Assembly (NCBI GenBank): GCA_016125495.1
Contig: WGLQ01000004.1
Span: 310,001-374,000, forward strand
Origin: Hyphomicrobiales bacterium
GTDB lineage: Bacteria; Pseudomonadota; Alphaproteobacteria; Rhizobiales; RI-29
Reading direction: 5' to 3'
DNA length: 64,000 bases
Below, piece after piece: positions 3,083-39,258 of this stretch. Under the pieces are notes generated by a model that saw nothing but the letters and a program-made list of their open reading frames with translations, was not told where the DNA came from and did no database searches. Each line of letters starts with the position of its first letter. The first letter of the stretch is position 1. A program made the position numbers and the translations under genes.

Positions 3083-3189
3083 GGCCCACCCGGCGGCTTC
3101 ACCACCCGTCCCGTCGGCTCGCTGTCCGGCTCACGGAGCCCGGTGCTCGCCACCACGCCCCCGGTTGGCGCCCGGTGTGCGCGGGAATT

Positions 3190-3535
3190 GATTGGAGGGC
3201 TTCTGTTGCCCGGTGCCCTCCGAACCGCGCCTAAACCCTGCTAGAGGCTTAGGACTTGATTCCCGGTACCGGGACCGCGTTACGCGGCCACAGCCTCCGG
3301 AGCATAGTTGTCGTTGGCAACTATTGATTTGGCCCGATGTCGGCGGAACCATGCCGAGCGAAAGATCGTCCTTTACACCCTCGTCGATCCTATTTCGCCC
3401 CCATCACCAGCTCACGCCGGGCCTTGTCCGGCTCGCCCGTCTCGTGGGCTGATGGTGGAGGCGCCGGGTACCGCCCCCGGGTCCGAATGGCTTATTACGA
3501 CGGCAGTTTATCGCCATAGCCGGATGCTTCCGGCG
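3190..3535 (-). ncRNA. ssrA: Circularly permuted (two-piece) tmRNA precursor
   Basis: On the minus strand the acceptor piece comes first. It has a T-arm-like hairpin CCGGG-N7-CCCGG and ends in GCGCCTCCACCA, with CCA at 3455-3453. An intervening segment of about 50 nt follows, and then the coding piece starting GGGGGCGAAATAGGATCG at 3402. The two ends pair as a 7-bp acceptor stem with G3-U70, the alanine identity element. The coding piece carries a resume codon and a tag frame encoding ANDNYAPEAVAA plus TAA, followed by strong hairpins, the last at 3221-3194 (GGAGGGC/GCCCTCC). This permuted order is characteristic of alphaproteobacteria, where processing removes the intervening segment. The outer ends are estimates: the 5' end from the promoter, the 3' end from the last hairpin. 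Confidence 0.95.
3280..3318 (-). other. tmRNA proteolysis-tag reading frame (ANDNYAPEAVAA, stop TAA)
   Basis: Twelve codons read from GCC at 3318-3316 to the TAA at 3282-3280. They encode a 12-residue tag starting A-N-D-N and ending in A-V-A-A. The small C-terminal residues are the ClpX recognition signal, and the AND-N head is the part bound by SspB in characterised systems. The frame is preceded by AATAGTT, as usual upstream of tmRNA resume codons. The tag is encoded inside the RNA gene and is not a free-standing protein. Confidence 0.95.
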
Positions 3536-3541
3536 ATGAAC

Positions 3542-3569
3542 AATATAGCGCATCACTCGTGAAATCCAA
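3542..3569 (-). promoter_or_regulatory. Predicted housekeeping promoter of ssrA
   Basis: On the minus strand TTGGAT (3569-3564) and TATATT (3547-3542) are separated by 16 bp. This predicts a transcript start near 3535, just ahead of the acceptor piece of the permuted tmRNA. It is the best sigma-70-like promoter in this interval. Support is positional and by consensus only. Confidence 0.6.
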
Positions 3570-31251: not shown

Positions 31252-32496
31252 TCATGGGCGGAGAGAAAGACATTCCGGGGCCGGCCTCCCGCTCTCGAGC
31301 AGGATCGTGCCATCGACCCATCCGCGCAGCGGCTCGTCGGCGCTCTCACCCTGGGGCGGCTGCACGAGGCACCACGGCGCGGGAAAGACGCCCCTGTCCA
31401 CCAGGTCGAACGAGTGCCACTTTGCGAGGGAATAATCGCCCCGGCACTCGATGCCGGTGATCTCGGTTTCATCGACCGGCAGGACGCCGACGACCGGAGA
31501 ATTGGCGTCGGGCTCGGCGTGGAGTTCGACGAGCGCGTCGGGCGCAACGCAAACGAAGCGCAGCGCGAGTCTCGAACCGTCCGCCGCGCGCGGGCTCGGC
31601 ACCGCGCCGACGGTCTTGGCGATGAGCTGTTCCATGCTGTCGGCCGCGCCGCTCGCGTCGCCCGCCGGCGCGCGTGACCCCTCCGGATGCGGCAGGATCT
31701 CGAAGTCGAAGAAGGTGCGCTTGAAGGGCTCGTCGGTGAGTTCGTAGTGCCACCACTCCTTGCGGTAGTTCTTGAAGCCGACGCGTGCCATTTCCGCGAC
31801 GAGCATCTGGCGGTTCTCGCGCGCCGTTCCCTTGATCGCCGGGTTGCCCGTGTGGCTCAGTTCGTGGAAGCAATCGTAGCCGGTTCCGAAATCGAGGCTG
31901 TTGTCGGCAAAGCGCTCCGCCTTCGGCCGATGGCAGGGAACCTGGGCGCCAGGATCGAAATCCGGCTGCGGGCCCGGCGGCAGGGAAACGACGGCGAGGT
32001 CGACCGTGCTGCCGCGCGCATGCGCCGAACGCGACGAGATGTAGCCGAGCGAGAACAGCGACCGCTTGTCGATTTCGGGATAGAATTCCCCTTTCGTGAT
32101 GTCGTCGTCGACGTCCTTGGCCCAGCGCACGAAATGGCGCACGCCCGCCATCGGGCGGTAGCAGTCGTAGACCTTGAGCGAGAGGTTGCGCGCTTGGAGG
32201 CGGGCCTGCACCTTGGCGAGCGCCAGCGCTGCCTTTCGTGTCAGGATGCACTCGGGCGCCAAATATCCGTCGACCCGACGGCCGACGAAATTGTGCTCCC
32301 CGAAATAGCGCATCTCCTGGATGATCGTGGCATCGATATCGCGCAGGTAGACGAACTCCTTCGGCATGGCCTCCTTGGCGCCCGCGCCGCCGGGCTGCCC
32401 GACGCCCGCGAGCAGGAGCGCGAGCATGACGGAGCCGACGAGGCGCCCCATCCGATTGCACGCCGCGTCCGCACCGGCACTTCTTCTTTTCACCAT
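31252..32496 (-). CDS. Exported VanX/DdpX-type D-alanyl-D-alanine dipeptidase with C-terminal SH3-like domain
   Basis: The 414-residue protein has a signal peptide (about residues 15-41). Its VanX-type zinc peptidase domain (about 45-265) has metal and catalytic residues in SAHARGSTVDLAVV (H159, D166) and EWWHYEL (E247, H250), as in D-Ala-D-Ala dipeptidases. The last 110 residues resemble an SH3b unit (ALVELHAEPDANSPVVGVLP and RGWVDG). The ATG at 32496 has AAAGGACGA upstream. It starts 38 bp after the caspase-like gene and is third in that operon. No vancomycin-resistance partners are near, so a cell-wall remodelling or recycling role is more likely. Confidence 0.85.
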   Translation of the reverse strand: MVKRRSAGADAACNRMGRLVGSVMLALLLAGVGQPGGAGAKEAMPKEFVYLRDIDATIIQEMRYFGEHNFVGRRVDGYLAPECILTRKAALALAKVQARLQARNLSLKVYDCYRPMAGVRHFVRWAKDVDDDITKGEFYPEIDKRSLFSLGYISSRSAHARGSTVDLAVVSLPPGPQPDFDPGAQVPCHRPKAERFADNSLDFGTGYDCFHELSHTGNPAIKGTARENRQMLVAEMARVGFKNYRKEWWHYELTDEPFKRTFFDFEILPHPEGSRAPAGDASGAADSMEQLIAKTVGAVPSPRAADGSRLALRFVCVAPDALVELHAEPDANSPVVGVLPVDETEITGIECRGDYSLAKWHSFDLVDRGVFPAPWCLVQPPQGESADEPLRGWVDGTILLESGRPAPECLSLRP

Positions 32497-32534
32497 GCTT
32501 TTCGTCCTTTGGGCGGGTATCGCCACTGCCCCGC

Positions 32535-34301
32535 CTACTGCCCGAGGAACTGGGATGAAACCCATCCGCGTGCCCCGCCGTAGCTCACGTAGCACCAGCT
32601 CGCGCTGCCGGCCGGCTGCACGCAGCGCTGCACCGCGATTCCCGTTCCGTTGTAGGGAATGGCGCCAATGCGGCCATAGCTTGGCCCCGGGCCGCTACGC
32701 ATGTTGAGAACGTCGTTCGAGGCGACCCCGACGACCCGATAGGCACCTCCCGAATTCTGGGGCGGGGTGGGCTGGCCACCGCCGCCCGCGACGGTGAGAT
32801 ATTTGCCGTTCGCCCACCCCTCGATGCAGCGGTAGCGCACGTAACACCAGTTCCGCGAATCGCACTGCGTGACCTCGATGCCCGAGCCGTCGTAGGGGAT
32901 TTCACCCGTGATGCGATAGGTGGTGCGCGGCCCGCGCCGCACGTTGAGGGTGTCGTTGGAGGCGACGCCCGTCACCCGCCAGTTGCCGCGTGGATGTCCG
33001 CAATCGGTCGAGAGGGGCGGCTGCGGCGTCGTCGGTGGTCGCTGGAGGTTGGCGAGCCGCTCGCGCTCCTCGCGCTCCCTTCGCTCGCGTTCCTGCTGCT
33101 CGCGATAGATGCGCTCCTGGGCGGCCTGATCCTCCGCCGCGCGGGCGTTGGCGAGGCGCTGGCGGTGCGCCCGGGCGAAGGGCGCGCGCGGGCCCTCCGG
33201 ATGTTGCGAGAGGAACGCGTCCCACCCCTCCATGGTGCCCACCTGTTCGGCGAGCGTGTAGGCTTCCGCCTCGCTGAGGCCGTTAGGCTCGGCCGGTTCG
33301 GTTTGCGGCTCGTTGGCCCCTGCCTCGGCGCCGTCGAGCGCGACCGGGGTGATCGGGCCGGGAAGAAATTGCCAATCGACCTCCCGCTGGGCGGTGAACT
33401 CGGGGGTCTGGGCCCGGCTCCTGAGACGAAGGGCGGTCCGGTGCACCTGCCGGCGCACGTAGAGCTGCAGCTCCTTGAACTCGACGATGCCGTCGCCGTC
33501 GCCGAAGAATTCGGGGCTGTCGGCCTCGCCCTCCGCGCCCTCGAGGAAATGCTGTGTGAAGAGCCCGCGCCGGCTTTCGGCGTCCCAGAACGCGACCTGG
33601 TCCGACGCCGCGGCTGCGAGCCGAACCACACCTGCCGTCGCCTCCATGGAAAAGACGAGTGCACCCGCACTGCTCTGGATCAGCGCGCCGCTCGACGATT
33701 CCCCGGAGAAACACGCCTCCATCATGAGGAACACGCGATTGTTCGGTCCGAGCAGTTCGCCGATCTCCTCGAGGTTTCGCTCGAGGGTGGCGACACCGAG
33801 GCCATAGCGTGCCTCGTTCGGCGAGACGTCGACGGGGATGAGGAAATTTTTCTTCTCGATCGGGTCGGGCGCGCCGTGCCCGAAATAATAGACGAAGATG
33901 TCGGCGAGGCGCTTGCCGTCCTGGAGCGGAATGCCGGACTCGACGAGCCGTCGCAGCTCCCCGTTCGAGGAATGCTCATTGCCGAACCAATCGCGCAACT
34001 GCGCTGCCCTCGCATCCCTGAGGATGAAGATGTTCTGCTCCTCGTAGCCGAGCTTTTCGAGGAGGAAGGCCTTCATCGCCGCCACGTCGTTGAGGGCGTA
34101 GTCGACCGGATGGGTGCGCTGGTAGTTCTGATTGGCGATGAGGACGGCGATACTGTGCTGGTTGCGATAGGGGTCCGCTGCCTGGGCGGACGACCACACC
34201 GGCGCCAGCGCGCCGAGCATCGCCGCAAGCAGGAGAACGAGGGCGATCAGGGGCCGCTGTCCGGTTCGGTTTGCGATGGGGTGCGTCATGTCGTGCCTCA
34301 T
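32535..34301 (-). CDS. Exported caspase-fold (C14) protease with EF-hand-like motif and two SH3b domains
   Basis: The 588-residue protein has a signal peptide (about 16-41), then a caspase-like p20 domain with catalytic His142 (VYYFGHGAPDP) and Cys197 (FLMMEACFSGES). FFGDGDGIVEFKELQLYV resembles a single calcium-binding loop. A charged, Arg/Glu-rich helical segment (about 430-480) follows, then two SH3b domains near the C terminus, each with VASNDxLNxRxGP. Bacterial caspase homologues cleave after basic residues. The target here is unknown. The ATGA overlap with the preceding gene shows translational coupling; the ATG at 34289 is an alternative start. Confidence 0.85.
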   Translation of the reverse strand: MRHDMTHPIANRTGQRPLIALVLLLAAMLGALAPVWSSAQAADPYRNQHSIAVLIANQNYQRTHPVDYALNDVAAMKAFLLEKLGYEEQNIFILRDARAAQLRDWFGNEHSSNGELRRLVESGIPLQDGKRLADIFVYYFGHGAPDPIEKKNFLIPVDVSPNEARYGLGVATLERNLEEIGELLGPNNRVFLMMEACFSGESSSGALIQSSAGALVFSMEATAGVVRLAAAASDQVAFWDAESRRGLFTQHFLEGAEGEADSPEFFGDGDGIVEFKELQLYVRRQVHRTALRLRSRAQTPEFTAQREVDWQFLPGPITPVALDGAEAGANEPQTEPAEPNGLSEAEAYTLAEQVGTMEGWDAFLSQHPEGPRAPFARAHRQRLANARAAEDQAAQERIYREQQERERREREERERLANLQRPPTTPQPPLSTDCGHPRGNWRVTGVASNDTLNVRRGPRTTYRITGEIPYDGSGIEVTQCDSRNWCYVRYRCIEGWANGKYLTVAGGGGQPTPPQNSGGAYRVVGVASNDVLNMRSGPGPSYGRIGAIPYNGTGIAVQRCVQPAGSASWCYVSYGGARGWVSSQFLGQ

Positions 34302-35776
34302 CTCACCTCGATGCGTGTCATGGCCTCGACGATGCCCGGCTCGGCGCGCATGCGCGCCAGCAACTCGACGATGACCTCCTCCTCGATCTCCCCGTTCGGT
34401 CCTGTTCCGGCCGCCCCGAAGAGGGAAAGCCATTTCCGGTGCAGGTCCTCGTCGATCGGCCTTTCGCTCGCGAAACAGTGGAACAGATCATTGCTGGCGC
34501 TCGTGAGGCGCTGCGGCGGAATGCCGAAATCGTCGGGAAAGACCCGTGTCTTGTGCCCGCTGATCTCACCGCTCTCGGGCATGCTCGGGTTGGGCACGAG
34601 GATGTAGGCGGATGCATCGTCGGCAAGGTACCAGCAATAGATCGCGAAGCGGGCGTCACGCTCACGCGCCGACGTGAGCTTCACCTTGAGCCGGTCGACC
34701 CCCACCCGGAAAAAGGGTTGGTCGAGATGCACCCAGAGTGTCCGGCGATCCATCTTTGCGCGCGCTTCGATGGTCCGCGTGAAGCTTTCGGTGCGCGCGC
34801 TGCACGAGAGGCCCGCGACCGCGAGCCGCTGGCGCGCGTGCATGACGACGTTGCCGCGTCGCACCTCGAGCGAGACCCAGAGCCGTGGCGCTTGAGCATC
34901 GCCGTCCGAGGCGCCGTTCGCCGCGCTCGGCGCGCCGCGCTCCGCCTCCGTCAGACCCCAGGAGCCGCCGATCACGATCGCGCCCTCGGGCACCTCACTC
35001 GAAGGCGTCGCGGCCCGTGCGTCGACCCGCAGTCGCCGTTCGTTCGCCGCGCGATTGATCGCGCCGATGCCCGTGTCGAGTTCCAGGTTGAAGGCTTCGA
35101 GCAAGTGGGCGCGCACAAGGTCGTCGCAATCGCCATAGGTGTTCGGGGCCGATCGGAAGGGCAGGAGGACGATGGTCTCGGCGCTCGCGCTTTCGCTGTC
35201 GGCGAGCGTTCGCCGCGCGACCGACGCCATCAGCCGGCGCACGTCGATGGTCCCGCTCACCGTCGCCATCTCGACCTCGGTCTGCAGCACCGTCTTGCAT
35301 GCCGGCGTCGGGCGCATGGCGACCAGGGTGAGGCGCACGCGTCCTTCCGCGACCAGCCGAACCTCCGGCCAGAGCAGGATTTCGCCGGCCGCCCGCGCGC
35401 CCGCCTCGATGCGCTCGGCTTCGCGCACCCCCGCCTCGCCCGACGCGACCGTGAGACCGATGAGCTTGGCCGCATCGTGCGACAGCCCCGTGCGCACACC
35501 CCGCTCGGCGAGCGCCGCCTCGATGGCCCGTGTCAATGCCGCTTCGTCGTCGCTCGCGAGCGGCGAGCCGGTGGCGCTGACGGGCACGACGCCGATCGAG
35601 ACGACGCCGTCGCCGAGTTCGCAGTCGCGCCGGATCTGGGAAACGAGGGTATCGCTCGCCGAGGCCGACAGCACGGTTTCGGCTGCCTCCGGTCGCTGGA
35701 CGCCCGTGCCGAGAGCCAGAAGCCCAGCCGTGAGGGCGGCGAGGACGGTCTGCGGCATCGCTCGTGTGCGCTGCAT
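34298..35776 (-). CDS. Exported DUF4384-like protein, first gene of the caspase operon
   Basis: The 492-residue protein has a signal peptide (MPQTVLAALTAGLLALGTG, cleavage near residue 32). Residues 40 to about 230 have alternating strands and helices and look like two repeated alpha/beta units. The C-terminal part LKVKLTSARERDARFAIYCWYLADDASAYILVPN resembles DUF4384, a domain repeatedly associated with caspase-like proteins. GAGGTCGG precedes the ATG at 35776. It overlaps the caspase gene by 4 bp. Exported location and coupling suggest it partners with the protease in the periplasm. Confidence 0.65.
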   Translation of the reverse strand: MQRTRAMPQTVLAALTAGLLALGTGVQRPEAAETVLSASASDTLVSQIRRDCELGDGVVSIGVVPVSATGSPLASDDEAALTRAIEAALAERGVRTGLSHDAAKLIGLTVASGEAGVREAERIEAGARAAGEILLWPEVRLVAEGRVRLTLVAMRPTPACKTVLQTEVEMATVSGTIDVRRLMASVARRTLADSESASAETIVLLPFRSAPNTYGDCDDLVRAHLLEAFNLELDTGIGAINRAANERRLRVDARAATPSSEVPEGAIVIGGSWGLTEAERGAPSAANGASDGDAQAPRLWVSLEVRRGNVVMHARQRLAVAGLSCSARTESFTRTIEARAKMDRRTLWVHLDQPFFRVGVDRLKVKLTSARERDARFAIYCWYLADDASAYILVPNPSMPESGEISGHKTRVFPDDFGIPPQRLTSASNDLFHCFASERPIDEDLHRKWLSLFGAAGTGPNGEIEEEVIVELLARMRAEPGIVEAMTRIEVR

Positions 35777-38388: not shown

Positions 38389-39258
38389 ATGTCGATGCTC
38401 TCACGGATGGAGATGCGGCCCGAGGCTGTCGCGCAATGGCGCGCGAAGCTGCGCTCGATCGTTTCCGCGACCTGGTTCGAGAACCTGATCATCGGCCTCA
38501 TCGTGATCAACGCCATCACGTTGGGGCTCGAGACCTCGGCGACCATGGTCGCGCGTTTCGGCACGCTCCTCTCGGTGATCGATACCGCCGTTCTCATTGT
38601 CTTCGTCGCCGAACTGGCAGCGCGATGGTTCGCCCACGGGCCCCGGCTGCTGCGTGATCCCTGGACGATCTTCGACACCTTGGTCGTCGCTGTCGCGGTC
38701 CTGCCGGCATCCGGCGACCTCTCGGTCCTGCGCGCCCTGCGGATCCTGCGGGCGCTTCGCCTCGTCTCGGCATTTCCACGGATGCGCCGCGTGGTCGAGG
38801 GGCTGTTCGCGGCGATCCCGAGCATGTCGACGGTGATCGTGCTGCTGATACTGATCTTCTATGTCTTCGCTGTCATGGCCACGAAGATGTTCGGCAGCGC
38901 GTTCGAGGAGCTTTTCGGCACGCTCGGAGCATCCGCCTACACACTCTTCCAGGTGATGACGCTGGAGGGCTGGTCCGACGGTGTCGCGAGGCCGGTCATG
39001 GAGCGCTACCCCTGGGCCTGGGCCTTCTTCGTGCCTTTCATCCTGATCACCAGCTTCGCGGTGCTGAACCTCTTCATCGGTATCATCGTCGATGCCATGC
39101 AGACCGAGCAGACCGAGGTGCGCGAGGAGGTGCACGAGGCCGAGCGACACACGATCGACGAGATCCATGTGCTAGTTCGAGAGGTCAAGAGCCTGCGGGC
39201 GGAGGTTGCCGCGATCAAGGCGGCCGTGGAACGCGAGCGCGCCCCCGGCGACGGCTGA
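38389..39258 (+). CDS. Bacterial voltage-gated sodium-channel-like ion transporter
   Basis: The 289-residue protein has six transmembrane helices. S4 is VLRALRILRALRLV with Arg at every third position (R115, R118, R121, R124), the voltage sensor. The pore loop has the selectivity filter TLEGWSDG (residues 191-198), related to the TLESW filter of NaChBac and NavAb. The C terminus (about 240-285) is a charged coiled coil (REEVHEAERHTIDEIH), as in BacNav tetramerisation domains. GAAGGGGGG precedes the ATG. The Gly and Asp in the filter make Na versus Ca selectivity uncertain. Confidence 0.9.
   Translation: MSMLSRMEMRPEAVAQWRAKLRSIVSATWFENLIIGLIVINAITLGLETSATMVARFGTLLSVIDTAVLIVFVAELAARWFAHGPRLLRDPWTIFDTLVVAVAVLPASGDLSVLRALRILRALRLVSAFPRMRRVVEGLFAAIPSMSTVIVLLILIFYVFAVMATKMFGSAFEELFGTLGASAYTLFQVMTLEGWSDGVARPVMERYPWAWAFFVPFILITSFAVLNLFIGIIVDAMQTEQTEVREEVHEAERHTIDEIHVLVREVKSLRAEVAAIKAAVERERAPGDG

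Follow-up and report, generated by a model that had tools for sequence, protein, structure and literature searches.

An exported-looking caspase paired with a VanX-like D,D-dipeptidase in Hyphomicrobiales: a candidate protease-linked cell-wall module

Caspases of animals kill cells, and the bacterial proteases of the type considered here are their relatives. To our knowledge, the bacterial caspase partners with tested functions are cytosolic and serve mostly in phage defence, and we know of no role for the many exported-looking caspases of Alphaproteobacteria. VanX-type dipeptidases, in turn, split D-Ala-D-Ala. The pro-nucleases of canu and related loci belong to one family, for which either a caspase or a trypsin-like protease acts as partner (PMC12799240). 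Putative peptidoglycan-binding domains on prokaryotic caspase homologues were noted in 2012 (PMC3501461), and in cyanobacteria caspase homologues can carry DUF4384 (PMC7475262). Here we describe an operon in a 64,000-nucleotide stretch of a Hyphomicrobiales genome (the window; assembly GCA_016125495.1, contig WGLQ01000004.1, positions 310,001 to 374,000), in which an exported-looking caspase directly precedes an exported-looking VanX-like dipeptidase.

The three genes of this operon, here called A, B and C, follow one another in that order by reading of the open reading frames, all on the minus strand of the window (Table 1). They lie head-to-tail with a 4-bp overlap and a 38-bp gap, as the original prediction had described: the stop codon of A and the start codon of B overlap in ATGA (4 nt), and 38 nt separate the stop of B from the start of C, for which an alternative ATG at 32451 would give a protein of 399 aa. 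The signal peptides claimed for the three proteins correspond to a hydrophobic N-terminal stretch in each (best 12-residue mean 2.4-3.2), from which we infer export. Invariant cysteines in the family alignments, four in C and six in A (all of those in A, across four family members), fit an oxidising compartment. The operon neighbourhood in the window comprises purA, A, B, a GNAT gene and a NUDIX gene, and no ligase or dehydrogenase genes of the vanHAX type adjoin C there. Elsewhere in the window, ARAGORN called a tmRNA at 3189-3548 with the tag ANDNYAPEAVAA, flagged with an asterisk.

Table 1. Coordinates of the operon genes and their domains in the window
Feature	Position	Strand	Description and basis
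Gene A	34298..35776	-	Exported-looking, 492 aa, DUF4384-bearing family; ORF and family alignment
DUF4384-like region of A	34502..34744 (limits approximate)	-	Aligned to L056 residues 356-427 (PF14326 E=4.8e-5)
Gene B	32535..34301	-	Exported-looking caspase with two SH3b domains, 588 aa
Caspase domain of B, residues 50-304	33390..34154	-	PF00656 E=4e-11; motifs YFGHG, EACFSGES
B His142 codon	33876-33878	-	
B Cys197 codon	33711-33713	-	
First SH3b of B, residues 450-498	32808..32954	-	PF06347/PF08239; model pLDDT ~80
Second SH3b of B, residues 530-586	32544..32714	-	PF08239; model pLDDT ~80
Gene C	31252..32496	-	Exported-looking VanX-like M15 D,D-dipeptidase with SH3b-like tail, 414 aa
M15 catalytic domain of C, residues 46-267	31696..32361	-	R114, H159, D166, E247, H250
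SH3b-like tail of C, residues 324-395	31312..31527	-	PF08239 17.5 bits (below cut-off); common to f34 homologues

The caspase profile PF00656 recognises B with 43.5 bits against a cut-off of 21.4, and the catalytic dyad is present as His142 in YFGHG and Cys197 in EACFSG. The protein also matches SH3_3 in two stretches (E=3.7e-19) and PF08239 likewise in two (69.1 bits, cut-off 27), which bears out the prediction of a caspase with intact His and Cys and two SH3b domains. The structure model of B is reliable for the SH3b and helical parts only; its low-confidence caspase domain (pLDDT ~50) has metacaspases as best matches (Z 11.6, 192 residues, 3.6 Å), which weakly supports a caspase fold. The PADLOC caspase model PDLC02987 gives a weak partial match to B (E=2.3e-5), and PADLOC returned no match for A or C. 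Five more exported-looking caspases, of the ESCFSG type, are encoded on contigs C2, C7 and C14 of the same genome (L066-L069), and L066, the only one compared with Pfam, matches PG_binding_1 weakly.

C matches the peptidase profile PF01427 (E=2.1e-31) and, over the whole domain, the VanX chain of PDB 1r44 (E=9.5e-33). VanX residues R71, H116, D123, E181 and H184 correspond to R114, H159, D166, E247 and H250 of C, and all five are invariant in 13 homologues linked to a caspase. C scores below the NCBIfam equivalog cut-offs for VanX (NF033115; 171 against 320 bits) and DdpX (81.7 against 176 bits). The SH3-like tail ascribed to C falls under the Pfam cut-off, but it is shared by the f34 members among the C homologues (E about 1e-14 (3e-14)). 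A similar division holds for the DUF4384 domain ascribed to A, which Pfam profiles do not detect in A itself at E<1 but do detect in its homologues L056 (E=4.8e-5) and L119 (28.9 bits against a 27-bit cut-off). A has no sequence match in the PDB, and its single-sequence structure model has a pLDDT of 34.

Of 397 genomes of the order, 90 contain C homologues by profile search. The neighbourhoods of most of these hits, together with further class-level hits, were scanned in all six reading frames using profiles of C, of caspase subclasses c1 and c2, of the SH3b pair, of a PF25302-like domain and of A. A caspase lies directly upstream of C on the same strand at 16 of the 90 VanX-like loci, the window included, and directly downstream on that strand at none of the 90. 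A 17th link comes from a named genome collection (L151, Proteobacteria bacterium petrobras_54); L154 (Methyloligella sp. DHS20C07), L155 and L176 were taken as genomes already counted and were not added. Sixteen genomes besides the window's therefore keep an exported-looking caspase with a tail of wall- or glycan-binding type directly upstream of C, so that the proposed partnership of an exported caspase with an exported wall dipeptidase recurs elsewhere, rather than C being unlinked to caspases in all other genomes. The linked genomes belong to eight families (f1, f9, f12, f29, f32, f34, f36 and f49, the window's included) plus one unplaced genome, with nine of them coming from two families (f34 and f29) and hence not independent. 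The His and Cys motifs are kept in 17 of 17 linked caspases, and the caspase and C genes overlap by 4 nt at the closest and lie about 110 nt apart at the widest. Flanking genes give two matching pairs in all between linked loci of different families. With 3-18 caspases per genome (mean 7.9), a caspase would by chance be the upstream neighbour of about 0.1-0.2% of genes, and chance thus does not explain the arrangement. In genome G155, the VanX-linked caspase (L078:5665-7266) carries an in-frame TAG, marking either a pseudogene or a sequencing error, and contig C74 holds an unusual array of six caspase-domain matches within 13 kb on one strand.

An SH3b-pair tail scores above 100 bits in 12 of the 397 genomes (the next score is 78.5 bits), and 11 of the 12 sit on a caspase directly beside C; in the twelfth (G213), tail and C come from two separate short contigs, and both lie close to where their contig stops. 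Most C homologues have no caspase neighbour (~70 of 90 loci, and 75 of 80 in another locus set), and C accordingly does not need the protease everywhere. On the tree of C, the label "linked" requires from 3 changes, forced by strong branches, to 7, and the history of the linkage is one of repeated gain, or of gain with losses. At one locus inside the linked clade, L153, the caspase is absent; the C homologue there (L153:4022-6702) is 61% identical to that of the window and follows minC- and minD-like genes. Outside the order, no link was found in 11 class-level C neighbourhoods, nor in Streptomyces and other homologues.

The partner of C varies, and the window itself is a case in point. The catalytic domain of B falls in caspase subclass c2 with 100/100 support in the tree, whereas the other linked caspases are all c1. 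It is 35-41% identical to caspases adjacent to A-family genes and 24-25% identical to VanX-linked ones, while its tail is 41-47% identical to the tails of the VanX-linked caspases. B is chimeric, with a catalytic domain of the c2 type and an SH3b tail of the kind that VanX-linked caspases have. A-family genes adjoin c2 caspases in G173, G365 and G195 and have one within ~6 kb in G374, G225, G244 and G018, seven other genomes together; given this and the nearest relatives of the two parts of B, the window operon joins two conserved pairs. The triad of caspase, DUF4384 protein and VanX-like enzyme, which the original prediction had put forward for a neighbourhood survey, is ruled out as a conserved unit: A stands beside the pair in the window only, and its family normally accompanies the c2 exported caspases in a separate cluster. 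This multigene cluster, found in the same genome outside the window (C4:1-16000, L065) and at L056, L112, L114, L117 and L120, contains a c2 exported caspase, A, a ~500-aa protein and two more without Pfam match, a trypsin-like protease or haem peroxidase, an OmpA-type protein and a secreted-looking ~350-aa protein without Pfam match, and looks like an undescribed envelope system.

Across the linked loci, the caspase tails are either two SH3b domains or PF25302 (NADase_transloc, F5/8 type C). In G014 (L059), a trypsin-like protease with a PF25302 tail takes the place of the caspase beside C, and this protease is homologous to that of the A/c2 cluster (E=1.2e-74). In G018 (L055), an A-like N-terminal domain (a weak profile match, E=3.6e-5) is joined to a PF25302 tail beside C, and in G285 (L108) a caspase-PF25302 gene is convergent with C. 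The c2 domain of the window, the protease of G014 and the A-like domain of G018, all three departures from the c1 caspase, thus draw on one other gene cluster. The protease type changes between c1 caspase, c2 caspase (the window) and trypsin-like enzyme (G014), and the pairing with C stays. Ion-channel-like genes of similar sequence occur at 38407-39258 of the window, ~6 kb from C, and at L055:8791-9576 in G018, directly after C.

Because the pair persists while its surroundings and the type of protease change, it is very probable that B and C cooperate in the cell envelope. The further reading, in which one envelope module has an exported, wall-tethered protease as its input and C as its output, has in our judgement about an even chance of being right. 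The exported protease would be held at the wall by its SH3b domains (elsewhere by PF25302, F5/8 type C), and the exported VanX-type C would split D-Ala-D-Ala in the periplasm. The protease would act as the switchable input, its activity altering that of C or the supply of its substrate. In the window, the usual catalytic domain appears to have been replaced by the c2 one, and A, the customary partner of c2 and probably its regulator, may have come along. The direction from input to output is suggested by the exchangeability of the protease, the constancy of C and the precedent of canu and related loci. As no pro-segment is evident in C, control by an indirect route (a shared target or the location of C) would be at least as likely as zymogen cleavage.

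It is possible, though we would not call it probable, that B and C are two independent envelope hydrolases co-produced for turnover or scavenging, where the protease digests envelope or external protein and C splits D-Ala-D-Ala for reuse, with no mutual regulation. Both proteins have an exported look, C is on its own in the majority of genomes and lacks a pro-segment, and a trypsin-like enzyme can replace the caspase, all of which suits such an arrangement. Bulk digestion fits poorly, however, with dyads intact in all linked caspases and with the caspase class itself, which is usually site-specific and regulatory, and a tail of wall- or glycan-binding type that is always kept points to action at a fixed site. 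We consider it unlikely that C is made as a zymogen, or held inactive in some other way, and is activated directly by protease cleavage, as the canu caspase activates its nuclease. While an interchange of caspase and trypsin-like protease activating one pro-enzyme family has a precedent (PMC12799240), and the same swap occurs beside C in G014, no pro-segment is visible in the linked C proteins, which led us to downgrade direct activation; among the C proteins that lack the SH3 tail, the linked do not exceed the unlinked in length (about 240-275 aa), and no insertion confined to the linked proteins was noticed in the alignments. That protease and dipeptidase form a secreted antibacterial or anti-predator weapon against other cells is very improbable: the exported look, the parts of wall- or glycan-binding type and PF25302, named for the translocation domain of an NAD glycohydrolase, would agree with it, but no secretion system or immunity gene was noticed beside the window operon, and a hydrolase of free dipeptide is a poor weapon. 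Accidental linkage or inherited synteny deserves the least credence of all, for despite the nine non-independent genomes of f34 and f29, the link spans eight families and needs three or more changes on the tree of C, domain swaps keep the pair, and the unrelated flanking genes rule out passive synteny.

Returning to the reading of protease as input and C as output, we tentatively suggest that the operon may represent a family of exported wall modules, switched by proteases, in bacteria of the Hyphomicrobiales type, with interchangeable inputs (two caspase subclasses, a trypsin-like enzyme and DUF4384-family domains) and the wall dipeptidase as constant output. Such modules might be a periplasmic counterpart of caspase-effector pairs, setting the recycling of wall precursors or committing the cell to lysis. 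A conserved partner with a simple assay, the hydrolysis of D-Ala-D-Ala, makes the role of exported caspases directly testable.

In kind, the caspase and C would form a protease-effector pair, and this pairing was not found described in the papers searched: literature searches for a caspase with M15 or VanX gave no description of it, and it is absent from the operon types in the main text of one survey of prokaryotic caspase homologues (PMC3501461). B resembles the prokaryotic caspase homologues (orthocaspases/metacaspases, C14) in its C14 domain and His-Cys dyad. C shares all five catalytic and zinc residues with VanX, DdpX and PcgL (peptidase M15) over a whole-domain match, and differs from them in its export-like start, four invariant cysteines, SH3b-like tail, protease partner and lack of vanH/vanA-type neighbours. 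Compared with the DUF4384-bearing caspases of cyanobacteria, A stands apart as an exported-looking protein in its own right, from a family that goes with a single caspase subclass and a multigene cluster. The window operon is like canu in having a caspase gene upstream of a hydrolase gene, and in the interchange of caspase and trypsin-like protease beside one partner. It is unlike canu in that the gene after B encodes an M15 peptidase and no MBL-fold nuclease and, whereas canu is cytosolic, B and C are exported-looking, with no gating insert seen and a partner that would act on a wall dipeptide.
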